Shown: positions 2,671-11,147 of the stretch, in pieces | Layout: every line of letters begins with the position of its first letter | Numbering within the stretch: position 1 is the first letter of the stretch | Origin: DRGV01 sp018903055 [NCBI: bacterium] | GTDB taxonomy: Bacteria > UBP18 > UBA7526 | Assembly: GCA_018903055.1 (NCBI GenBank) | Contig: JAHIPW010000187.1 | Location: 1-12,785, forward strand | Direction: 5' to 3' | Length of the DNA stretch: 12,785 bases | The notes under the pieces: model-generated | The model's input: the letters and a program-made list of their open reading frames with translations, nothing else | What the model was told of the DNA's origin: nothing | The model's database searches: none | Program-made: the position numbers and the translations under genes

Positions 2671-2720
2671 CGGTTACGAATAGTTACGAAGCGGTTACTA
2701 ACGGTTACGAACGGTTACTA
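2671..2720. repeat. Five helically phased GGTTAC-type decamers upstream of thiC
   Basis: Copies of (G/A)GTTAC(G/T)A begin at 2672, 2682, 2693, 2703 and 2713, spacing 10, 11, 10 and 10 bp. More degenerate GGT-containing words extend left to about 2657. In the thiE-thiC transcript they read as repeats of GTAACCGTTC, ending about 25 nt before the thiC ribosome-binding site. They could be protein-binding sites or members of the general gap-filling repeats of this genome. Confidence 0.7.
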
Positions 2721-2774
2721 GTACTAAAAAGGAGTCGCAGTGAAAAGAGTAATCGGTAAACAGTGCGAAGAAAT

Positions 2775-2811
2775 CTAATTTGCGAGAACCGTCTGGCGAG
2801 GAACAAATTAG
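2775..2811 (-). other. Candidate stem-loop across the thiE stop codon
   Basis: An 8-bp perfect inverted repeat, CTAATTTG (2775-2782) and CAAATTAG (2804-2811), encloses a 21-nt loop. The loop region also holds a near-direct repeat of GCGAG(G)AAC. The thiE stop TAA (2808-2810) lies in one arm. There is no U-tract after the stem in the minus-strand transcript, so an intrinsic terminator is unlikely. An RNA-processing or stability element between thiE and thiC is possible. Confidence 0.35.
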
Positions 2812-3449
2812 TTCCTTCTTTTCAATCTCTTTACCTCTTTGATTTGCCTTAATAATTCCCCGGTAGTTTTTCGGATATTTTTTGCTCCCACCACTGCCGA
2901 GGCAGCTGCTACCCCATCTGCCCCGGCCCTTATTACACTGGCTACATTGTCCCTATTTATTCCCCCGATAGCAATCAGGGGGAGTCTGATCTTTTCTTTA
3001 ATCTGGGCAATTGTTTTTAAACCTCGTGGTGGAGGTAGGTCTTTCTTTGTTTTAGTAGAAAAGATGGGCCCCAGACTGACATAGTCTGCTCCCTCCCTTT
3101 GGGCCTTTAATGCTTGTGAGAGATTACGCACCGTTGCCCCAATAATCTTATTTCTTCCCAAAAGTTTCCGTGCTATTTCTATAGGAAAATCCTCTTGACC
3201 CAGATGAACCCCATCGGCATCTACTGCTTGAGCAATGTCTATTCGATCATTAACTATGAATAGCGCTTTTTTCTTCCTGGCTACTTTCTTAAGAGAGGAG
3301 GCTAGGTGGCATAAATCCCTGCTCTCCATCTCCTTCTCCCTCAACTGGATAGCGGTTGCTCCTCCGGCAATTGCTTCCCTTGCCACCCGAATGGGCGACC
3401 TACCATTCATCATTCTTCTATCAATGATAACATAAAGGCTTAAATCCAT
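2808..3449 (-). CDS. thiE: Thiamine-phosphate synthase ThiE
   Basis: Condenses HMP-PP with hydroxyethylthiazole phosphate to give thiamine phosphate and pyrophosphate. The 213-residue length is normal for this TIM-barrel enzyme. Motifs in order are QLREK (35-39), the metal/pyrophosphate-binding NDR (67-69) and GVHLGQED (80-87), GPIFSTKTK (127-135) for pyrophosphate binding, IGGI (161-164) and the C-terminal phosphate-loop region ADGVAAASAVVGA (177-189). The ATG at 3449 has only a weak GGTGA upstream, so translation may lean on upstream thiD2. It sits between thiD2 and thiC on the same strand. The gap to thiD2 is filled by heptamer repeats. No TenI-type change is obvious, and the ThiE assignment is supported by the flanking thi genes. 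Confidence 0.95.
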   Translation of the reverse strand: MDLSLYVIIDRRMMNGRSPIRVAREAIAGGATAIQLREKEMESRDLCHLASSLKKVARKKKALFIVNDRIDIAQAVDADGVHLGQEDFPIEIARKLLGRNKIIGATVRNLSQALKAQREGADYVSLGPIFSTKTKKDLPPPRGLKTIAQIKEKIRLPLIAIGGINRDNVASVIRAGADGVAAASAVVGAKNIRKTTGELLRQIKEVKRLKRRN

Positions 3450-3460
3450 TGTTCACCATG

Positions 3461-3544
3461 CAGGCCACAAGCTTCATGCTTCAAGTCACAAGCTTCAAGC
3501 CGCAAGCTTCTTTTGTAGCCTGTAGCCTGAGACCTGTAGCCTGT
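3461..3544. repeat. Array of twelve degenerate 7-bp units between thiE and thiD2
   Basis: The tract divides without a break into twelve heptamers. The left seven are of a CAAGCTT type (exact at 3468, 3489 and 3503, variants between). The right units are of an AGCCTGT type (3517-3523, 3524-3530, 3531-3537, 3538-3544). The array ends two bases before the thiD2 stop codon. The AGCCTGT family recurs at 11106-11147, 7.5 kb away. CAAGCTT units contain a palindromic AAGCTT core, so the transcript could fold on itself. Confidence 0.85.
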
Positions 3545-3546
3545 TT

Positions 3547-3969
3547 CTATTGAGCTTCCAGTTTTTCCAGCAGTTCTCTTTCCATGTCGTAGGCCTGGAA
3601 GCGTAATCTTTTAAACCTTGCCCCGGCAGAAGGATTGATCTTTTTAGTAAACTCTTCTAAGACCCTTAAGGATTCTTCCACCCGCTTCATATTAGAGGTA
3701 ACAATATCCTCATAATTCTTTCTTTTTCCTTCACTCCTGGGATAGGTTCTGGCTCCCACGTCCTTTCTGATATCCCGAATGGCAAGTAATTTTTTAGTGT
3801 CAATCTTTAGGCTTTGGATAATCTTTGTTACCTGATGACGGATGCCTTTGAGTTTCTTAGTCAGTTTCTCATCACAGAGGATGAACCGGGCTACTTCTTC
3901 ACAGACCCTCAGACCCTCTCTTGCCCGATTGATATTGGCATCGAATACCCTGTAAATTTCTTCTCTCAT
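3547..3969 (-). CDS. thiD2: ThiD2-type hydroxymethylpyrimidine phosphate kinase
   Basis: A 140-residue protein matching the ThiD2 domain, known both fused to the N-terminus of ThiE and free-standing. The family is described as a monofunctional HMP-P kinase unrelated to the ribokinase-fold ThiD. It should turn ThiC's product HMP-P into HMP-PP for ThiE. Recognised signatures are DANINRAREGLRVCEEVARF (10-29), IRDIRKDVG (64-72), SNMKRVEESLRVLEEF (92-107) and RFQAYDMEREL (123-133). The protein looks all-helical and soluble. It is the first gene of the thi operon, with ATG at 3969, a good AGGAG Shine-Dalgarno and a sigma70-like promoter immediately upstream. The stop TAG sits directly against the heptamer array. 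Function rests on motif memory plus the fit between thiE and thiC. Confidence 0.88.
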   Translation of the reverse strand: MREEIYRVFDANINRAREGLRVCEEVARFILCDEKLTKKLKGIRHQVTKIIQSLKIDTKKLLAIRDIRKDVGARTYPRSEGKRKNYEDIVTSNMKRVEESLRVLEEFTKKINPSAGARFKRLRFQAYDMERELLEKLEAQ

Positions 3970-3989
3970 ATCTTTCTCCTTATTGTTTT

Positions 3990-4019
3990 ACTATATCATA
4001 AATAAGCTATTTTGGTCAA
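3990..4019 (-). promoter_or_regulatory. Candidate sigma70-type promoter of the thi operon
   Basis: Read on the minus strand, TTGACC (4014-4019) and TATAGT (3990-3995) are separated by 18 bp. The predicted transcript starts about 15 nt before the thiD2 ATG, which leaves no room for a TPP riboswitch. Confidence 0.55.
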
Positions 4020-4077
4020 ACTTTGTTTCTTCGGGATGACCAATCTCTGTTTTTCCTTGCCTTTAGTAACGATCGTT
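4012..4077. promoter_or_regulatory. Dyad-symmetric sites in the divergent thiD2/MFS control region
   Basis: TTGGTCA (4012-4018) and TGACCAA (4037-4043) form a 7-bp inverted repeat with an 18-bp spacer, overlapping the -35 box of the thi promoter. A separate perfect 10-bp palindrome AACGATCGTT (4068-4077) touches the weak -35 of the MFS promoter. Both are placed where operators would lie, but they are short enough to arise by chance. This gap (3970-4160) is the only long gap without a tandem repeat array. Confidence 0.3.
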
Positions 4078-4104
4078 TATCTAAGTAAGGAGTTTATTTA
4101 TAAT
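4076..4104 (+). promoter_or_regulatory. Candidate promoter of the MFS transporter
   Basis: A perfect -10 hexamer TATAAT (4099-4104) lies 17 bp after a weak -35, TTTATC (4076-4081). The gene's Shine-Dalgarno AGGAGG (4146-4151) lies 9 nt before its ATG. Confidence 0.5.
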
Positions 4105-4160
4105 TTCTGCTTGCCAAATGGAGGAAAAAAGGTTAGAATGAAGATAGGAGGTAGGAGAAA

Positions 4161-5450
4161 ATGAGCGATTCCTTGAGAAAATGGAAGAGTGAAGTCTTAA
4201 AGAATCATAGGTGGAATACTACAATTACCATTTTGGATGGGGCATTCTTCTTTTTTGGATTGGGGTTTGTCTTTGAGATTACTATCCTGCCTCTATTCAT
4301 CAGTAAACTAACCCCTTATAAGTCTGTGGTGGGCCTGGTTCCTGCTTTATGGATGCTCGGTTTCTTTGGTCCCCAGATTATCTCTGCCCGCCTAGTAGAG
4401 CCCCTGGCACGCAAGAAAAGGCTGGTCTTTTTGGTAGGAATGGGGCAGCGTCTCCCCTGGTTATTCTTAGCCCTGGCTACCTATTTTTTCATAAGGGCGG
4501 GTTCTCTGGTGGGTCTCCTTCTCTTTTTTTTCCTCTATGGATGTTACGCTTTTTCCGGGGGGTTCAGCTTCGTTCCCTGGCTGGATCTAATGGGTAAGGT
4601 TCTTCTTCCCAAGAAAAGGGGCCGGGTTCTGGGATTCAATCGCCTTGCTGGAGGTACCCTGGGAATAGCAGGGGCTTTGGTAGCGGGTCGTATCTTGGGT
4701 CATCTCCCTTTTCCCAATAACTTCTCCCTCTGCTTCCTCCTGGCCTTTCTTATGACCTCTATCTCCCTGACTGTCTTCTCTTTTTACAGAGAGCCTGATT
4801 ATCCAGTGGTCAAGAAGAGAGTGGCCTGGAAAGTTTATTTCAAGGGGTTGGGAAGGATTTTGAGGGAGAATAAGAATTACTCCTACTGCCTCCTGGCCAA
4901 TATCATCCTCTGCTTTGTGGCCATGGCCACTCCCTTCTACGCCCTCTACGGAATTGAAAAGTTAGGAGCCCCAGAGGGATGGATAGGAAGATTTACCGCC
5001 TTAATCCTGGGAGCGCAGACGATAACCTTTGTTCTCTGGGGATACTTAGGGGATAGGCAGGGCTATAAAGGAGTGATGGTCTTGGCTGCTTTATTCGCAG
5101 GCGGAGCTGCAGTTCTGGCCCTTCTGGCAGAAAGTATTGGACTCTACTTGCTGGTCTTTGTTCTTTTGGGTTTCTATACGAGCGCTGTCATGCTGGGATA
5201 TATGAATATCGTCTTAGAGTTTTCTCCACCCGAAGAAAGGGCCACCTATATCGGTTTGGGTCATACCATACTTGCCCTCCCCTTAACTATTGCTCCCCTT
5301 CTGGGTGGTCTCTTAATAGATAGGATAGGCTATCGTTTCGTCTTTGGTCTAACCGCTCTTGTAGCCTTTGTGGGCCTATCCATCCTGATTTTAGTGGTGA
5401 AGGAGCCCCGTCGTCACTACTCCTTCTTTAACACGGATGGGCGCGGATAA
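4161..5450 (+). CDS. Major facilitator superfamily transporter, substrate unknown
   Basis: A 429-residue membrane protein with about twelve hydrophobic segments in two halves split by a basic central loop near 210-240 (YREPDYPVVKKR). A loop-8/9 motif A variant, GYLGDRQGYKG (294-304), supports MFS membership. LPKKRGRVLGFNRLAGG (149-165) fits the cytoplasmic loop of the first half. It is a secondary transporter of the inner membrane. Divergence from the thi operon makes a thiamine-related substrate conceivable, but nothing in the sequence shows it. It is the only plus-strand gene. Its last residues (about NTDGRG) and stop codon are encoded by a decamer tract of the ACACGGAT type (5431-5450), so the original C-terminus has probably been overwritten or extended by repeat DNA. 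Confidence 0.85.
   Translation: MSDSLRKWKSEVLKNHRWNTTITILDGAFFFFGLGFVFEITILPLFISKLTPYKSVVGLVPALWMLGFFGPQIISARLVEPLARKKRLVFLVGMGQRLPWLFLALATYFFIRAGSLVGLLLFFFLYGCYAFSGGFSFVPWLDLMGKVLLPKKRGRVLGFNRLAGGTLGIAGALVAGRILGHLPFPNNFSLCFLLAFLMTSISLTVFSFYREPDYPVVKKRVAWKVYFKGLGRILRENKNYSYCLLANIILCFVAMATPFYALYGIEKLGAPEGWIGRFTALILGAQTITFVLWGYLGDRQGYKGVMVLAALFAGGAAVLALLAESIGLYLLVFVLLGFYTSAVMLGYMNIVLEFSPPEERATYIGLGHTILALPLTIAPLLGGLLIDRIGYRFVFGLTALVAFVGLSILILVVKEPRRHYSFFNTDGRG
5431..5450. repeat. ACACGGAT-type decamer pair forming the MFS gene 3' end
   Basis: Two decamers, ACACGGATGG and GCGCGGATAA, share the core CGGAT and supply the final codons and the TAA of the transporter. The same word appears in inverse orientation at 5581-5600 and in the tract at 6301-6330. 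Confidence 0.55.
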
Positions 5451-5452
5451 CT

Positions 5453-5578
5453 AAATGCAAAATGTAAAAATCAAAGTGCAAAATGACAAATCAAAATTTA
5501 AAATTTTGGACTTTAATATGTCCCGAAAGGATCCCTTTGGGATAATTTTGATTTTTGATATTTGATTTTTAAATTTAA
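5453..5578. repeat. Two opposed A/T-rich heptamer arrays flanking a hairpin
   Basis: 5453-5508 divides into eight heptamers of AAATGCA/AAAATCA type. 5544-5578 divides into five heptamers of ATTTTTG type, the reverse complement of the same family. Between them lies the stem-loop at 5521-5542. The whole is an inverted repeat of arrays between the convergent MFS and efp genes. The AAAATCA family recurs on the other side of efp (6178-6212). Confidence 0.8.
5521..5556 (+). terminator. Probable intrinsic terminator of the MFS gene
   Basis: TCCC-AAAGG (with one bulged G) pairs with CCTTTGGGA around an ATC loop at 5521-5542. It is followed on the plus strand by a T-rich stretch (TAATTTTGATTTTT). On the minus strand no U-tract follows, so it is less convincing as a terminator for efp. 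Confidence 0.55.
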
Positions 5579-5580
5579 AC

Positions 5581-5600
5581 TAATCAGTGCTAATCCGTGT
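5581..5600. repeat. Decamer pair (TAATCAGTGC-type) abutting the efp stop
   Basis: TAATCAGTGC and TAATCCGTGT match at 8 of 10 positions and end one base before the efp TAA. On the minus strand they read as ACACGGATT/AGCACTGATT, the same family as 5431-5450. Confidence 0.6.
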
Positions 5601-5601
5601 A

Positions 5602-6159
5602 TTAGGCTCTCTCCAGATACTCTCCAGTTCTGGTATCTAACTTAACAATATCCCCGGTGTTTATAAATAAAGGAACCTGAATTATAGCACCGGTCTCCAG
5701 GGTAGCCGGTTTTGTGCCCGAAGTTGCCCGATCTCCCTTTAATCCTGATTCAGTACGGGTAACCTTTAAAGAAACGGTAATGGGTAGTTCTACCCCCAGG
5801 ATCCTTCCCTTATGGGTTAAAAGCTCAATCGTGACGTTCTCTTTTAAGAAGCGGATCCCTTCCCCTATCTGGGAGGTATTCAGGTTTACTTGTTCGTAGG
5901 TTTTACTATCCATAAAGACCAGGCTCGTGCCTTCCCGGTAAATGTACTCCATCTTCTTTTTTATTAAATGCGCTGCCTCAAACTTAGTACCTGCCCTGAA
6001 AGTTTTTTCTACAATACTTCCTGTGGCGAGATTCTTGAGTTTGGTGCGCATCACTGCCCCACCCTTGCCCGGCTTATGGTGCTGGAACCAGATAATAAGA
6101 TGAATCTGGCCATCAATGATAATGGCCACCCCGTTTTTAAAATCTTTTGTAGAAAGCAT
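5602..6159 (-). CDS. efp: Elongation factor P
   Basis: Binds stalled ribosomes and restores peptide-bond formation at consecutive prolines. Signatures are an N-terminal KOW-like domain, the exposed loop HKPGKGGA with the lysine expected to be modified (K32 with the start used here, the B. subtilis position), RTKLKN, and the C-terminal OB signature SGLKGDRATSGTKPATLETG. I place the start at the ATG at 6159 (185 residues, beginning MLSTKDF as in other EF-Ps). An in-frame GTG at 6168 would add three residues but lies within the presumed Shine-Dalgarno GGGTGGAG. No modification enzyme (EpmA, YmfI or EarP type) is in the window. The gene lies downstream of a Xaa-Pro peptidase, a common pairing, and is flanked on both sides by the same repeat families. 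Confidence 0.95.
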   Translation of the reverse strand: MLSTKDFKNGVAIIIDGQIHLIIWFQHHKPGKGGAVMRTKLKNLATGSIVEKTFRAGTKFEAAHLIKKKMEYIYREGTSLVFMDSKTYEQVNLNTSQIGEGIRFLKENVTIELLTHKGRILGVELPITVSLKVTRTESGLKGDRATSGTKPATLETGAIIQVPLFINTGDIVKLDTRTGEYLERA

Positions 6160-6177
6160 CTTCTCCACCCTTTTATT

Positions 6178-6212
6178 AAATTCAAAAATTAAAAGTTAAA
6201 AATCAAAATTTG
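6178..6212. repeat. Five A/T-rich heptamers upstream of efp
   Basis: Consecutive units are AAATTCA, AAAATTA, AAAGTTA, AAAATCA and AAATTTG. They are the same word family as 5453-5508 on the other side of efp. Confidence 0.7.
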
Positions 6213-6213
6213 G

Positions 6214-6363
6214 AACCACAGATGAACACAGGTAAACACTGTTAAACTAAACCACAGATTAAAAACCACAGAAACCACTGAAGACACTGAATTTATTGGG
6301 AACCACGGATTAGACAGATTTAACAGATTATAAAACCACAGATAAACACAGGTGAACACTGTT
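6214..6363. repeat. Decamer repeat region with a duplicated 30-bp block
   Basis: The blocks at 6214-6243 and 6334-6363 match at 28 of 30 positions, and each is three decamers (AACCACAGAT, RAACACAGGT, RAACACTGTT). Partial copies of AACCACAGAT or AACCACGGAT start at 6250, 6264 and 6301. This fills most of the 275-bp gap between pepP and efp, and no gene is visible in it. Confidence 0.8.
6327..6356 (-). promoter_or_regulatory. Possible efp promoter inside the decamer repeat
   Basis: On the minus strand, TTCACC (6351-6356) and a perfect TATAAT (6327-6332) are 18 bp apart. The -35 box is contributed by the repeat unit itself. It could give efp its own transcript apart from the polysaccharide operon. 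Chance occurrence in A/T-rich repeat DNA is a serious alternative. Confidence 0.35.
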
Positions 6364-6380
6364 TGTCAAATTTCACCTGC

Positions 6381-6428
6381 ACTTTCTTACTTTCCCACCT
6401 GCCCACTTTCTCATTTTCTCACTTTCTC
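6381..6428. repeat. Six 8-bp ACTTTCTC-type units after pepP
   Basis: Consecutive octamers are ACTTTCTT, ACTTTCCC, ACCTGCCC, ACTTTCTC, ATTTTCTC and ACTTTCTC. In the minus-strand transcript this is a purine-rich GAGAAAGT tract starting seven bases after the pepP stop codon (TGA, 6435-6437). The period is 8, unlike the neighbouring arrays. Confidence 0.75.
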
Positions 6429-6434
6429 CGACTT

Positions 6435-7502
6435 TCATAGTTCTGGTAACTCTTTTGGAGCGCGTCTACTTAGGACTTTGCATCCTCTCTCAGTGACCAG
6501 AACCATATCTTCAATCCTCATCCCTCCCCATCCAGGAATATAGATTCCCGGCTCTACTGTCAAAACCATTCCTGGCTCAAGAAGAGTGTCGTCCTCTGAT
6601 TTCAGATAAGGTTCTTCATGCACTTCCCTTCCTATTCCATGTCCCAGTCCATGGCCAAAGAACTTTCCGTAACCTTCCTTGGTGATTATATCTCGGGCTA
6701 TCTTATCTACTCGGGCACATTCTATTCCTGGTTTAATCTTCTCTATTGCTTCACTCTGTGCGCGATAAAGAAGGGAATAGATTCTTCTCTGTTTTTCAGT
6801 TGCTCTTTCAAAAACAAAGATGCGCGTAAGATCGGAAGAGTATCCCTGATAAATTGCTCCCCAATCTATCTTGATTAGATCTCCTTTTTTTAGCCTTGCT
6901 GAAGAGGGTTTACTGTGGGGATAAGAAGTTCTTCTGCCAAAGGCCACTATGGGAGGAAAAGCGCTTCCCTCTGCTCCTGCTTTTTTTATTTCGTATTCTA
7001 AAAGGGCGGCAACTTCTCTTTCTTTTATAGAAGCTTTTATTTTCTTTAGCGTTTTAACTAAAGCCTTTTCAGTAATTTCAATTGCCTTCCTGATTAAGCT
7101 AATCTCCCCCTGGTCTTTAAGGCGACGAAGATCTTCTACCAAACCTCGGGTGGGGATTAATCTGATCCCCTTTAGATTTTTAGAAAAGAAACGATGGCGG
7201 GAATAGGATAGATGCTCTGCCTCAAATCCTAATTTTTTAATCTTTGGCTTATTTAGGGCAGGGACTAAGGCCTTGAGAAGTGGGCCTTTTCTTTTTTTTA
7301 TCTGAAAATTGATTACCTTTTTCTTTGCCTCTTCCAGATAGCGAAAATCAGTAAGGAGTATTGCTTTTTTGAAAGTAACCAAGGCAATATCTTCAGAACC
7401 AGCGAAACCACTCAAGTAACCTATATTTATGGGATTGGTTAATAAGAGAGCCGGAATCTTCTCTTTAGCCATCCCCTCTCTCAACCTTACTAATCTCGTC
7501 AT
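6435..7502 (-). CDS. Xaa-Pro aminopeptidase/dipeptidase, peptidase family M24B
   Basis: A cytosolic dinuclear-metal peptidase that cleaves Xaa-Pro bonds. The 355-residue length is that of the compact bacterial form. The N-terminal creatinase-like domain (about 1-125) contains NPINIGYLSGFAGS. The pita-bread catalytic domain carries the five expected metal ligands: D213 (KIDWGA), D224 (SSDLTR), H288 (HGLGHGIG), E317 (VEPGIY) and E331 (RIEDM). It also has the substrate-site histidines H196 (YPHSKPS) and H295 (VHEEP). The ATG at 7502 overlaps the glycosyltransferase stop (ATGA) and has AAGGG upstream, so it is co-transcribed with the polysaccharide genes. Next to efp it makes a proline-metabolism pair seen in many bacteria. 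Aminopeptidase and prolidase activity cannot be separated by eye. Confidence 0.93.
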   Translation of the reverse strand: MTRLVRLREGMAKEKIPALLLTNPINIGYLSGFAGSEDIALVTFKKAILLTDFRYLEEAKKKVINFQIKKRKGPLLKALVPALNKPKIKKLGFEAEHLSYSRHRFFSKNLKGIRLIPTRGLVEDLRRLKDQGEISLIRKAIEITEKALVKTLKKIKASIKEREVAALLEYEIKKAGAEGSAFPPIVAFGRRTSYPHSKPSSARLKKGDLIKIDWGAIYQGYSSDLTRIFVFERATEKQRRIYSLLYRAQSEAIEKIKPGIECARVDKIARDIITKEGYGKFFGHGLGHGIGREVHEEPYLKSEDDTLLEPGMVLTVEPGIYIPGWGGMRIEDMVLVTERGCKVLSRRAPKELPEL

Positions 7503-8659
7503 TGAAGCCCTTTAGTCCTCGTCAGTTCCTGATAAAGGTCATCGATCTTCTCAACCATTAAATCGATATCAAACTCCGGGAAGACCTTCTCCTTTCCTTT
7601 TTTCCCCATCTTCTTTGCCATTCCGGGATTATCTAGTAGACTGATTATCTTTTCTGCCATACCCCCAATGTCACCTACCGAGATCAAGAATCCATTCACC
7701 CCTTCCTCTACGGCTTCCGAAGCCCCATCTACCTTAGTAGCAACGATGGGCAACTCACTCGCCATGGCTTCTGGAAAGACCCGGGGAAGACCCTCCCAGC
7801 GAGAGGTCAAAGTCAAAACGTCTATAACTTTTAGAATCTGGGGGATATCTTTTCTCCAGCCAGCGAGGATTACCTTCTTCTCTAAATCAAAAGTTTTTAT
7901 TAATCTCTCAATCTCTGGCCTCAATCTCCCATCCCCGATAAGAAGGAATTGAGTTTTAGGTCTCTTCTTTATTACCTGATTAGCCACTTTAACAAAGTCC
8001 AGAGGGGCCTTCTGGGGTTTGAGGCAGGCAATCATAGCTACTACTTTAGTATCTTCCTCAAGGCCCAACTCTTTCTTCTTCTCGGCAACATCCACTTCCA
8101 CATTCTGGAACCGAAAAGGTTTTATTCCGCTTCGGATAAGGGTGTATTTTTCTTTCCTTCCAATTCTATTCTCTATTCCAGTCTCAATATTTGCTCGGGA
8201 GACGGCGATTAATCTATCCGTAATTTTAGCTGTCATCTTCTCTAAGAAGATGAAGAGCCTCTTCTTTAAGAGGCCCTGTTTGGGATAGAAACCCCAGCCA
8301 TGAATGGTATGAGTAATAATCGGTACTCTGGCTAACTTGGCTGCCCCCCTCCCCAAAATCCCGGCCTTTGAGGAATGGGTATGGATGATATCTATCTTCT
8401 CTCTTTTGCAAAAGCGAAATAGCTTAACCAGGGCCATTAGATCTTTTAAGGGACTGATGGGTCGTATGAGTTCGGGAATGAAAAATGCTTCTACATCCTT
8501 CATTCTTTTCGCTTCTTCTACTAATATTCCTTCATCATTGGCTGCCAGGAAAAGGTTATACCTTTTCCGGTCAAGGTTCTTTAGGGTGTAGAGAGTATTC
8601 TCCTGTGCTCCACCCAGTTCTAACTTGGTAATAATATGTAAAATATTTAGTTTTCTCAT
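7499..8659 (-). CDS. GT4-family glycosyltransferase
   Basis: A retaining GT-B enzyme, likely adding a sugar to a lipid-linked glycan at the cytoplasmic face of the membrane. With the start at ATG 8659 (386 residues, MRKLNILHIITKLELGGAQ) it has the classic N-terminal glycine motif GGAQENTL, then THSSKAGILGRGAAKLARVPIIT-type acceptor-domain sequence. The C-terminal donor domain has LIGDGRLRPEIE, LAGWRKDI and the EX7E motif EGLPRVFPE (289-297). I prefer 8659 to an upstream in-frame ATG at 8707: AAAAGG lies 4 nt before it, and the extra 16 residues (QPQKHKIQLKGTKGT) are encoded by overlapping epimerase and repeat DNA. The stop overlaps the M24B peptidase start. The donor and acceptor sugars cannot be inferred. 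Confidence 0.92.
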   Translation of the reverse strand: MRKLNILHIITKLELGGAQENTLYTLKNLDRKRYNLFLAANDEGILVEEAKRMKDVEAFFIPELIRPISPLKDLMALVKLFRFCKREKIDIIHTHSSKAGILGRGAAKLARVPIITHTIHGWGFYPKQGLLKKRLFIFLEKMTAKITDRLIAVSRANIETGIENRIGRKEKYTLIRSGIKPFRFQNVEVDVAEKKKELGLEEDTKVVAMIACLKPQKAPLDFVKVANQVIKKRPKTQFLLIGDGRLRPEIERLIKTFDLEKKVILAGWRKDIPQILKVIDVLTLTSRWEGLPRVFPEAMASELPIVATKVDGASEAVEEGVNGFLISVGDIGGMAEKIISLLDNPGMAKKMGKKGKEKVFPEFDIDLMVEKIDDLYQELTRTKGLQ

Positions 8660-8665
8660 AGTACC

Positions 8666-8701
8666 TTTTGTGCCTTTAAGTTGAATTTTGTGTTTTTGTG
8701 G
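8666..8701. repeat. Degenerate 9-bp CCACAAAAA-type repeat at the epimerase-GT junction
   Basis: On the minus strand four nonamers follow one another: CCACAAAAA, CACAAAATT, CAACTTAAA and GGCACAAAA. They encode the last residues (TKTQNST) and stop of the epimerase and provide the spacer before the GT ribosome-binding site. Confidence 0.5.
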
Positions 8702-9626
8702 TTGCAAGCCAGGCTACTTCTTTTTTCAGGCCTTCTCTTAACTTTACCTTGGGCTGATAATCTAATAATCTCTTCGCCTTTGATATATCGGCAAAGGTAT
8801 GAAGCATGTCTCCCTTTTGCTTCTCAATATATCTTACCTTTGCTTTCTTCTTAGTAATCTCTTCTAATATCTTTAGGGTTTCATTTACTGTAACCTGTGC
8901 CCCTCCTCCAATATTTATTATCTCCCCCCCCGCTTCACACTGAGCTGCTTTTATGGTGGCCTCTACAGTATCGGAGACATAGGTAAAGTCCCGGGTCTGA
9001 TTCCCGTCTCCATAGATGGTAATCTCCTCGTTATTTAATATGGCCTTAATGAATCTATGGAGGGCCATATCCGGTCTCTGCCTCGAGCCATATACTGTGA
9101 AGTAGCGCAAAATAATCACGGGCGCTTTATAAGACCTATAATAAAGATAGCCCAGTTTTTCAGAGGCCAATTTGGTAACCCCATAAGGAGATATGGGCCT
9201 TAAGACATTATCCTCCTTCATGGGTAAGGGACTTTCTCCATAGACAGAGGAAGAGGAGGCCAAGACAACTTTCTTTAAGGGTAATCCCTTTGCCTTTTCC
9301 AATAGTCTCTGGGTAACAGTAATATTATTTCTAATGTAGTACTCAAAATTCTTTCCCCAGCTTTTTCTCACCCCAGGCTGGGCCGCTAAATGGAAGAGAT
9401 AATCAATCTCTTCCAAATCTTTTTTCAGGTTTAATTCTAAAAGGTCTCCTTCTTGAAAGGAAAAGCCCTTATCTCCTTTTAGATTCCTTAGGTTGTCTTC
9501 TTTTATCTTTCGGGAGTAGTAGTCAGTAAAGGAGTCGATACCCTTCACTCCCCATCCCAATTTCAACAATCCCTCTGCTAAATGGGAACCAATGAATCCC
9601 GCCACCCCCGTTACTAACGCTTTCAT
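8676..9626 (-). CDS. NAD-dependent sugar-nucleotide epimerase (extended SDR; GalE/UDP-glucuronate epimerase type)
   Basis: A cytosolic Rossmann-fold enzyme interconverting UDP-sugars, most likely at C4. Seen are GVAGFIG (7-13) for NAD, D31 after the second strand, HLAAQPGVRKSW (79-90), the catalytic SSSSVYG (124-130) and Y148-x3-K152, then RYFTVYGSRQRPDMA (174-188) and GDGNQTRDFTYVSD (206-219). FTDYYSRKIKEDNL (33-46) resembles UDP-glucuronate or UDP-GlcNAc 4-epimerases, but a dehydratase or another UDP-hexose epimerase is possible. The ATG at 9626 has a strong GGGAGGT. A run of eight G (8934-8941 in window coordinates) lies in the codons for AGGE. The C-terminus (TKTQNST) is encoded by repeat DNA. 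The 155-bp gap upstream could carry its own promoter. Confidence 0.92.
   Translation of the reverse strand: MKALVTGVAGFIGSHLAEGLLKLGWGVKGIDSFTDYYSRKIKEDNLRNLKGDKGFSFQEGDLLELNLKKDLEEIDYLFHLAAQPGVRKSWGKNFEYYIRNNITVTQRLLEKAKGLPLKKVVLASSSSVYGESPLPMKEDNVLRPISPYGVTKLASEKLGYLYYRSYKAPVIILRYFTVYGSRQRPDMALHRFIKAILNNEEITIYGDGNQTRDFTYVSDTVEATIKAAQCEAGGEIINIGGGAQVTVNETLKILEEITKKKAKVRYIEKQKGDMLHTFADISKAKRLLDYQPKVKLREGLKKEVAWLATTKTQNST
8934..8941. repeat. Eight-base C/G homopolymer in the epimerase gene
   Basis: Eight consecutive C on the plus strand, read as GCG GGG GGG GAG in the gene (A-G-G-E). It is in frame here. A one-base slip would truncate or alter the last third of the enzyme. Confidence 0.9.
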
Positions 9627-9729
9627 AGCTTAACCTCCCAGACGCTGATTTCTTTTTACTGCTTACTGCGTGGGTATATTTGACGCAGATACTCAACGCA
9701 CTTTGTTTGCCTTGAGATGTTAGCCGTAG

Positions 9730-9735
9730 ATTATA
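9730..9735 (-). promoter_or_regulatory. Isolated -10-like TATAAT in the flavoprotein-epimerase gap
   Basis: A perfect TATAAT on the minus strand about 100 nt upstream of the epimerase ATG. No good -35 hexamer stands 16-18 bp before it. Apart from this, 9627-9755 holds the epimerase Shine-Dalgarno and two ACTGCTT-like heptamers (9658-9671), with no gene. Confidence 0.2.
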
Positions 9736-9755
9736 AATGTTTGATATCAGATTTT

Positions 9756-9790
9756 ACTGATCACTGATTACCGATTACTGATTACTGACC
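9756..9790. repeat. Five ACTGATT-type heptamers at the 3' end of the flavoprotein gene
   Basis: Consecutive units are ACTGATC, ACTGATT, ACCGATT, ACTGATT and ACTGACC. The array starts inside the coding sequence: it encodes the final Gly-Gln and supplies the TAA stop. Confidence 0.85.
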
Positions 9791-11092
9791 ATTGAGCTGC
9801 TGGGCCGTTTCTCTACCTTGCTCAATGACGTCTTCCATGGAGAGATACTCCCAAGAGCCGAACCTTCCCATGGAATAGATGTCATTCGCTCTCAAAAATC
9901 TTTGAATGGTGGCTACACTCTCTCTGTGGTTATGGTCATAGAGAGGATAGGCATATCTGATGTCTAAGACAAGTTTTGCCAGAATTTTATCTCGGGAAGT
10001 AATAATACCTGCCTTTATTAAATCCTTTATTACTCTTCTTGTTATCCCTTTCCTATCAAGTGGTTTATCTTTAGAATAGGAAACCTCGGTATAGATAGAA
10101 CTCGTCCCCCGGGGAGCAAGATAAGAAGAGAAATTAGAGTTAAAACCCACCCGATAGAAAGTAAACTCTTTCTCCGGGAAATAAATCCAGTGCTTGTCTG
10201 ATATTTTCTCTCGTCTAATCCCCAAGTTTAGATTGAAGACTGAAACATATCTTAGGCGCTTAGAAGCCTTGTTAATTTTCTCTGGTATTCGGTCGATAAT
10301 TTTTATCAGTTCTGGTAAAGGAATAGTAGATACCAATCTTTGATATTTTTTCTCTTTACCGTTGTTGAATCTAATCTTTTTATCTTTAAGCGAGATTCTG
10401 GTCGCTTCCGAGTTAAGGTCTATCCTTCTAACAAAAGGGAGGAAAGACTTGGGCAGTTCCCCTATCCCCCCCGTTAAAGGATAATAGAAACGAATATTAT
10501 AGCCAAAGTCCTTTTCTTGTCTCCCCCTTGCTCCCGCCAAGGCCTCCTTCAATGTAGGAATAGGAATGAACCTCTTGGTCCATTCTGTGGACATCTCCTC
10601 TATGGGGACGGTCCATAATTTCTCATTGTAGGGGATCATGAAATGCTTAGCATAGCCTCGGCCGAAGTTTCTATAGATCCAGTCCTTAAAGTTAGTTCGG
10701 AGTTTGGAGTTCGGAGTTCGGAGTCGAGAATGTTTTCTGGCTTCTTTGAGGCCATTGATGCATTCTTCTATAACCTCTTCAGGTAATCCATAGATATTGG
10801 CCTGAAAGGGATACTTGGTATAGATTCCTTTGGAATAGATCCAGGCCTTTCGCTTCTGAAGAAAGAGATTCTTTCTTAAAAGTTCTTTAATTAATTTTTT
10901 ATTTTCATTTCTCTTAAGGTGGAGTAAGTGTCCAGTATAGTCGAAAGTAAAGCCGTCTATTTTCTCGCTTCTGCATAATCCTCCTGCCCTGGATTCCTTT
11001 TCAAAGATAGAATAATTTTTATTCAGATAATAGGCGCAAGTTAAGCCACCCAGCCCGGCACCTAGAATAATTATTTCGTTGGATTTTTTCAT
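9782..11092 (-). CDS. FAD-dependent UDP-galactopyranose mutase-like / amine-oxidase-fold protein
   Basis: A 436-residue flavoprotein of the UGM/protoporphyrinogen-oxidase fold. The FAD dinucleotide motif GAGLGGLTCAYYL (11-23) is followed by the ribose-binding acid E31 and AGGLCRSE. GFTFDYTGHLLH (47-58), NFGRGYAKHFMIPYNEKLW (142-160) and the C-terminal GRFGSWEYLSMEDVIEQG resemble eukaryotic-type UGM relatives found in bacterial polysaccharide loci. A likely job is conversion of a UDP-hexopyranose to the furanose, but a redox role is not excluded. Residues about 122-134 are encoded by a heptamer array, an apparent insertion in a linker. The last residues and stop also come from repeat DNA. The ATG at 11092 has no clear Shine-Dalgarno and follows an A-rich leader downstream of another heptamer array. 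Confidence 0.85.
   Translation of the reverse strand: MKKSNEIIILGAGLGGLTCAYYLNKNYSIFEKESRAGGLCRSEKIDGFTFDYTGHLLHLKRNENKKLIKELLRKNLFLQKRKAWIYSKGIYTKYPFQANIYGLPEEVIEECINGLKEARKHSRLRTPNSKLRTNFKDWIYRNFGRGYAKHFMIPYNEKLWTVPIEEMSTEWTKRFIPIPTLKEALAGARGRQEKDFGYNIRFYYPLTGGIGELPKSFLPFVRRIDLNSEATRISLKDKKIRFNNGKEKKYQRLVSTIPLPELIKIIDRIPEKINKASKRLRYVSVFNLNLGIRREKISDKHWIYFPEKEFTFYRVGFNSNFSSYLAPRGTSSIYTEVSYSKDKPLDRKGITRRVIKDLIKAGIITSRDKILAKLVLDIRYAYPLYDHNHRESVATIQRFLRANDIYSMGRFGSWEYLSMEDVIEQGRETAQQLNGQ
10694..10721. repeat. Four 7-bp units inside the flavoprotein coding sequence
   Basis: On the plus strand AGTTCGG, AGTTTGG, AGTTCGG and AGTTCGG follow in direct tandem, with a partial unit on each side. Read in the gene they give the peptide LRTPNSKLRT. 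Because 7 is not a multiple of 3, gain or loss of one unit would shift the frame. Confidence 0.85.
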
Positions 11093-11105
11093 TTTTAGTT
11101 TTTAC

Positions 11106-11147
11106 TGTAGCCTGCAGCCTGAGGCCTGGAGCTTGAAGCCTGAGGGA
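11106..11147. repeat. Six TGTAGCC-type heptamers between wecA-like gene and flavoprotein gene
   Basis: Consecutive units are TGTAGCC, TGCAGCC, TGAGGCC, TGGAGCT, TGAAGCC and TGAGGGA. They fill the 55-bp gap and end exactly at the wecA-like stop codon. They are the same family as the right half of the array at 3517-3544. Confidence 0.85.

Follow-up and report, generated by a model that had tools for sequence, protein, structure and literature searches.

Contig JAHIPW010000187.1 of assembly GCA_018903055.1, a stretch of 12,785 nucleotides analysed at its full length and called the window below, comes from the draft genome (1,085,295 bases, 191 contigs, 85% complete) of a small uncultured bacterium, DRGV01 sp018903055. 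The ten window genes that were scanned are all ordinary: they encode a tRNA nucleotidyltransferase, ThiC, a ThiE-type protein, ThiD2, elongation factor P, an M24 peptidase, glycosyltransferases, a sugar epimerase and a flavin oxidoreductase. Their order is kept in all four relatives compared. The gaps between them carry short tandem arrays with a period of 7, 8 or 10 bases, some lying in foldbacks (Table 1), and our subject is these arrays, their recurrence throughout the genome and their exchange between relatives. The source genome (G000) was compared with one genome of the same genus (G001) and four of the same taxonomic family (G002 to G005), the completeness of these six family genomes being 53-93%; further comparison genomes are kin at domain level only.

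For each array, 300 dinucleotide shuffles of the host stretch served as the control, with the best lag from 5 to 12 taken at any place. A preliminary description of this DNA had claimed eleven arrays with periods of 7 to 10 filling nearly every gap. Ten of these hold at their periods, the one at 6214-6243 as a borderline case, while the supposed period-9 array at 8666-8701 does not (lag-9 identity 0.37, matched by 299 of 300 shuffles). Periodicity exceeds 500 shuffles in six of the seven gaps of at least 25 bases (P <= 0.004), and the divergent promoter region 3970-4160 is the one that does not exceed them (P 0.234), in keeping with the preliminary description. The word "filled" overstates the case, because the claimed arrays make up 436 of 1082 gap bases (40%). 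Two features had been overlooked: an array within a gene (10694-10724) and the foldback layout of the stretches 3445-3550 and 5430-5610. The first stretch folds as RNA with a z of -3.4 and the second as DNA with a z of -5.4, values reached by 0 of 200 shuffles in either case. In the second, the period-7 foldback is flanked on both sides by remnants of outer period-10 CACGGATAAC arms (about 5430-5452 and 5580-5600). The gap at 5430-5600 is a single composite element, and it recurs at two other places in the genome, L038 and L045; the right part of the 5453-5579 element shares 98% identity over 58 bp with the former and is akin to the latter. In G001, the divergent gap opposite 3970-4160 (L073) holds more than three tandem copies of a unit of about 43 bases (ATTTTATGAGCAAAGCGAATAAAAGAGACAACTTGCTTGACTC), a repeat that the window does not have.

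Table 1. Periodic arrays of the window, with their shuffle tests and what occupies the same site in relatives
Position	Strand	Array	Setting	Lag identity; shuffles reaching it	Same site in relatives
2671..2720		period 10, GGTTACGAAC / GTTACTAACG family	between thiC and thiE	lag-10 0.70; 0/300	other sequence in G003; gap absent in G005
3461..3544		period-7 foldback, GCTTCAA / TGTAGCC words	gap separating thiE from the ThiD2-family gene; inside the folded stretch 3445-3550	lag-7 0.61; 0/300	period-8 CACTTTC array in G003 (gap 3450-3546)
5453..5579		period-7 arms AAATGCA.. and ..TTTTGAT of nested foldback	between convergent genes	both arms (5453-5508 and 5544-5578) 0/300	only period-10 foldbacks in G001 and G003
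6178..6212		period 7, A-rich		1/300
6214..6243		period 10, ACCACAGATG, borderline		16/300
6334..6363		period 10, CCACAGATAAACACAGG		2/300
6381..6428		period 8, CACTTTCY		lag-8 0.78; 0/300
9756..9790		period 7, TTACTGA	overlaps 3' end of oxidoreductase open reading frame	lag-7 0.82; 0/300
10694..10724	+	period 7, AGTTCGG	within flavin oxidoreductase gene (9782-11092, minus)	lag-7 0.92; 0/300	different period-7 array, GTTTACG type, in G003 and G005
11106..11147		period 7, TGTAGCC / GAAGCCT		lag-7 0.69; 0/300	A/T-rich foldback in G003; nothing in G005

The periodicity extends beyond the window. Own-genome statistics were drawn from 42 contigs not picked for array matches, in whose 82 gaps (14,269 bases) intergenic autocorrelation peaks at lag 7 (z 18.2), with further peaks at lags 14 (10.4) and 21 (8.1), and at lag 10 (11.0), with another at lag 20 (5.8); lag 8 (4.5) and lag 6 (2.7) follow. 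No peak occurs in these gaps at lags 5, 9 (z 0.4), 11 or 12, the last two lying below zero, and coding sequence has none at 7, 8 or 10, as judged from values without a shuffle test. By a strict detector, arrays account for 14% of the intergenic bases of these contigs. A wider sample of 172 gaps, which takes in the window and 14 contigs picked for AGTTCGG matches, has 83 array-bearing gaps; the arrays scoring at least 14 comprise 42 of period 7, 21 of period 8, 13 of period 10 and 2 of period 9, with none at periods 5, 6 or 11 and an expectation of at most 0.1 per period. In the relatives, the z values of lags 7 and 8 are 16 and 11 in G003 and 24 and 36 in G001, beside a smaller excess at several other lags. 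The preliminary description had asked whether intergenic autocorrelation rises above that of shuffled sequence and whether arrays occur on other contigs. Lags 7, 8 and 10 do so in the source genome, lags 7 and 8 stand out in both relatives, and other contigs carry arrays; the coexistence of periods that it proposed is borne out for 7, 8 and 10 and fails for 9. That all this reflects low complexity arisen by chance, or faults of assembly, is extremely improbable, even for a genome available as a fragmented draft: lag peaks of z 18 and 11, the same word families in independently made assemblies and a period-8 array in the isolate genome of Prevotella ruminicola KHT3 (L158) speak against it.

The arrays fall into word families. 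Every family has a single period, a core that is conserved and a fixed set of variable positions. Among 232 arrays of G000, G001 and G003 with periods 7, 8 and 10, the same consensus word was found in different gaps in 106 pairs at period 7 (29.1 with shuffled letters), 125 at period 8 (4.8) and 8 at period 10 (0.0). The core letters G, T, A and C of 14 GTTTACG arrays deviate in 1-3% of units, against 19 and 32% at the two middle positions (P 6e-11). Seven families were tested for such variable positions, five giving P < 1e-4 and the other two, which are A/T-rich, about 0.01. Depending on stringency, 11-25% of sites differ between adjacent units. Transitions make up a fraction of 0.42, 0.43, 0.45, 0.42 and 0.33 of these differences in arrays whose lag identity runs from 0.60 up to 0.85 and above, compared with 0.32 for random pairs and with 0.78, 0.74, 0.74 and 0.74 at 4-fold sites of the window genes against four relatives. 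Since the unit differences lack the transition bias of 4-fold sites, the units have not diverged by the usual substitutions of this lineage, and their variation is not ordinary decay; the earlier phrase that the period is "kept through substitutions" is therefore misleading. With differences of this extent and kind, the arrays also do not match the near-identical, slippage-made units by which short tandemly repeated repetitive (STRR) sequences and other long simple sequence repeats are recognized. Equal unit order recurs at different places of one genome, among the arrays listed, in six pairs in G004 against 0.54 expected (0 of 2000 shuffles) and, less strongly, in three pairs in G003 (0.65 expected; 46 of 2000) and four in G000 (1.33 expected; 64 of 2000). 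A complement swap between arms was considered as a source of unit variation and rejected: A-T and C-G differences stand at 0.87 and 0.51 of expectation, with no enrichment, and the self-complementarity of the words does not exceed that of shuffled words.

Many arrays are laid out as foldbacks. The stem score is 25.0 in 78 array gaps compared with 16.8 in their mirror control, and 71 array-free gaps follow the same trend less strongly (19.3 compared with 13.2). Nearly constant polarity is a clearer sign of the foldback layout than any excess of inverted partners. Of fourteen words tested, eleven yield 26 partnered arrays, all with the G-richer arm on the 5' side, while the other three, rich in A/T, give a mixture; in 80 listed records of other organisms, CACTTTC arrays have their partner on the 5' side in 27 and on the 3' side in 1, with 1 and 3 in the mirror control. 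Some of the arrays sit in longer palindromes that are themselves dispersed, with copy counts that rest on a sampled third of the genome. A GGTTAGG foldback of 108-130 bp occurs at nine places and an AGAAAAC foldback at six, and AGTTCGG words are adjoined by a 38-base palindrome (CTCTCGTCCCGAGGGGACTCGAGGTCCCCGAGGGAGAG) in 12 nearly identical sampled copies (L015 12318-12389 and eleven other places). A match elsewhere in the sample, relatives' stretches counted, was found for 130 of 165 gaps of at least 40 bases. Four GGTTAGG foldbacks (L025 10372, L025 12236, L015 14664 and L015 15984) have a palindrome of about 20 bases nested in them (CCTGCCTG..CAGGCAGG), which enters the foldback at two different points, and one of the nine sampled copies holds another insert.

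These observations bear on the explanation that the arrays are ordinary long simple sequence repeats, grown from chance seeds by independent slippage at each site, decaying by point mutation and made frequent by the loss of mismatch repair. A preference of prokaryotes for heptamers and an account of it by slippage have been published (Mrazek 2007, as cited in PMC4679880 and PMC4692102). MutS domain I (MutS_I) was found in none of the six family genomes (control 11 of 14), and no MutL-type ATPase scored above the cut-off in any of the six, with weaker matches in four; the lineage therefore seems to be without classical mismatch repair. This loss is not a necessary cause of arrays, since 13 of the 15 genomes from outside the family that bear arrays have MutS. 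Independent slippage is also at odds with unit differences that show no transition bias, with the same variable positions in independent arrays, with words recurring in unrelated gaps far above chance and with arms paired in a fixed polarity, and we regard it as quite unlikely.

We see an even chance that the arrays instead belong to families of small, non-coding foldback repeats, copied block-wise. An element would consist of two arms joined by a loop, one made of tandem words and the other of their complements, and elements would nest in each other. Blocks of several units would be copied to new places, and their arms might lengthen or shorten afterwards through unit duplication. With block copying, unit variation would be inherited with the block and not be made by decay. 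The shared generating process suggested in the preliminary description receives support of an indirect kind, from the common layout and from the turnover of word families.

Several results weigh against block copying of foldbacks. Foldback is common in the absence of arrays (15 of 71 array-free gaps reach a stem score of at least 24), and the excess of single arrays with an inverted partner is small (56 compared with 44 in mirror controls, n=107). When one mismatch is allowed, the recurrence of period-7 words becomes uninformative (113 pairs compared with 112.7), and the pairs with equal unit order, drawn from the arrays listed, lie partly on one contig. Mirror pairing of units in GTNNACG arrays was rejected, as 285 of 1000 shuffles do as well. 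The intergenic sequence free of arrays is nearly as unalignable between relatives as the arrays themselves (53% compared with 56% unaligned for G004-G003, 86% compared with 90% for G000-G001). No enzyme that might move the blocks came to light among those searched for in the six family genomes: Y1 transposase (PF01797, Y1_Tnp; control 5 of 14), reverse transcriptase (RVT_1; control 3 of 14) and DDE_Tnp_1 (control 9 of 14) gave no match in any of them, other transposase types not having been searched. Finally, 13 candidate clean insertions, compared with the target-site duplication of miniature inverted-repeat transposable elements (MITEs), show direct repeats of only 0-4 bp, and no such duplication was found; among transposases that might serve MITEs in trans, the search covered DDE_Tnp_1. 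The lack of RVT_1 in all six family genomes, which are 53-93% complete, also led us to reject a product of a diversity-generating reverse transcriptase or retron. Repetitive extragenic palindromic (REP) sequences depend on Y1 transposases, which this family appears to lack, and are not known to be periodic arrays. REPs, REPINs and other palindromic repeats are likewise small dispersed intergenic hairpins (compare PMC3733652 and PMC3116915).

The block reading draws further on comparison between relatives. Arrays are present in both genomes in 7 and in one in 3 of 14 orthologous gaps of G000-G001; the corresponding figures are 9 and 14 of 30 gaps for G000-G003, and 6 and 14 of 25 for G001-G003. 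Where both have arrays, the word, and even the period, is often different, as also in several gaps of the window (Table 1). Between G003 and G004, 35 arrays in 61 gaps were divided into 20 called replaced and 15 called conserved, and on inspection the latter comprise seven with at most one difference, two that are partly alike and six different sequences force-aligned. Four of the seven near-identical arrays lie between genes with 8-23% divergence over the 250 bases bordering the gap, and at these four loci we counted 1 difference in 136 array bases, compared with a 4-fold-site divergence of 22.5%; a large part of the gap around the array is equally well preserved. The G003-G004 stretches were picked around GTNNACG matches, a choice that favours kept arrays of that family, and three of the four well-kept arrays have other words. 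Constraint seems to act on some of the retained elements; recent exchange may account for their preservation as well.

Such retention could also mean that the arrays are selected cis-acting sites, with core and period maintained by selection and the core of each word read by a protein or an RNA-level process, in a terminator, a 3' end or a processing hairpin. The conserved core with its free positions, the four G003-G004 loci and the distribution over gap types (among the 172 gaps, 3 of the 14 divergent ones bear arrays, against 75 of the 145 codirectional and 5 of the 13 convergent ones) fit this idea. We nevertheless consider it unlikely: 20 of 35 G004 arrays are replaced in the same G003 gap and six of the 15 "conserved" ones are plainly different, the neighbouring genes belong to every functional class, the diversity of words is too great for one protein, and the four supporting loci were chosen post hoc. 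Orientation linked to transcription was rejected. CACTTTCY matches (matches, not arrays) lie opposite to codirectional genes by 23:2. Strand skew is 0.100 in arrays and 0.105 in array-free gaps; being equal with and without arrays, it indicates that the CACTTTCY orientation reflects general strand composition. The strand skew of arrays gives no support for a strand-specific role.

Outside the family, one word is widespread. Three consecutive copies of CACTTTCY were found in five of six family genomes and in 1 of 235 others (G023, 31 matches), which has period-8, -7 and -6 arrays, part of its stretches having been picked for CACTTTCY matches. In named genomes the word occurs in at least 114 stretches. 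The 80 listed records are titled as Acidobacteria, Poribacteria, Planctomycetes, Bacteroidetes, Latescibacteria, relatives of Verrucomicrobia, Chloroflexi, Nitrospiraceae, Neomarinimicrobiota, Chlamydiota, gamma-proteobacteria, Ruminococcus and one archaeon; most are metagenome bins, whose taxon titles may err. Four copies of GTNNACG (exact core, free middle letters) occur in all six family genomes; 2 of 120 other genomes have them too, with units that are uniform. The reversed pattern has no match. GGCTRCA is found in five of six family genomes and in none of 235 others. A vocabulary common to phyla was therefore rejected, only one word being widespread. In most other named organisms the lag peaks are weak once the matched gap is dropped, and Latescibacterota CSMAG_2404 has none at 7, 8 or 10 with that gap left out. 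A bolder and rather doubtful reading is that period-locked foldback DNA forms a broad, largely undescribed class that fills gaps between genes in some bacteria, represented by CACTTTCY at period 8 in about a dozen phyla by record names. Its blocks would be made or copied with unit length and free positions set at birth, and exchanged like cassettes at gene borders while the genes diverge.

STRR sequences of heterocystous cyanobacteria are intergenic and include several heptamer words per genome. To our knowledge, their descriptions cover heptamers only and include neither periods 8 and 10 nor nested foldbacks. Set against the 7-bp tandem, intergenic unit of STRR and other long simple sequence repeats, the arrays here most often have period 7, but periods 8 and 10 coexist with it. 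The likeness to cyanobacterial heptamers noted in the preliminary description is fair, since repeats in Nostoc and Xanthomonas have been described in a similar style (PMC4692102, which also mentions a Calothrix case of heptanucleotide repeats). These GGGAATC / GGGGA(C/T)T heptamers are the closest described case: they are intergenic and genome-wide, have about four units with a core and set variable positions (GGGANTN), lie in convergent pairs at 70 of 186 sites of one genome and seldom between divergent genes, and vary between close species, the repeats looking more stable than their surroundings (PMC4692102). Fixed core, set variable positions and paired convergent copies are shared with our arrays. 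The Xanthomonas/Nostoc heptamers have one G-rich, quadruplex-forming word and one period per genome as far as that text goes (PMC4692102), and the novelty here is that one genome holds many words and as many as three periods. Quadruplex-type G-runs are missing from most of our words: in the unit tables inspected, GTTTACG, GATAAGTT, GGCTACA and GTTAATAACA are without GGG, and GGGAAAGT and GGGGAAAC contain it. The TAACTGA direct repeats of Beggiatoaceae, some Cyanobacteria and Bacteroidetes likewise form heptamer arrays in intergenic positions and have a scattered distribution across distant phyla. Unlike our arrays, they are reported as one exact word in 169 direct sets and one indirect, mostly just upstream of start codons, with single-base variants seldom repeated (PMC4679880). 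Tandem repeats of Borg elements evolve fast and occur also within genes, as here, in elements that are extrachromosomal and archaeal, unlike here (PMC9879509). None of six array words was found in the open-licence PMC literature, nor did we find described there several words and periods in one genome or the unit-difference spectrum. The commonness of heptamer repeats in bacteria has so far been attributed to polymerase slippage; here the unit-difference spectrum, the fixed placing of the free positions and the pattern of arrays being either replaced or kept speak against slippage and decay, and the origin of the arrays thereby becomes testable through comparison of close strains. If blocks are copied, an unknown mobility route would operate in a genome without the searched-for enzymes.

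Two further sequences were noted. A 52-base stretch with 92% identity lies at non-orthologous gaps of two genomes (window 9639-9690 and L071 6296-6347), and a 65-base element without a short period (AACGGCGCGCTTCGCTCTCCGCCGTC...) occurs at L083 3292-3356 and at six other places.

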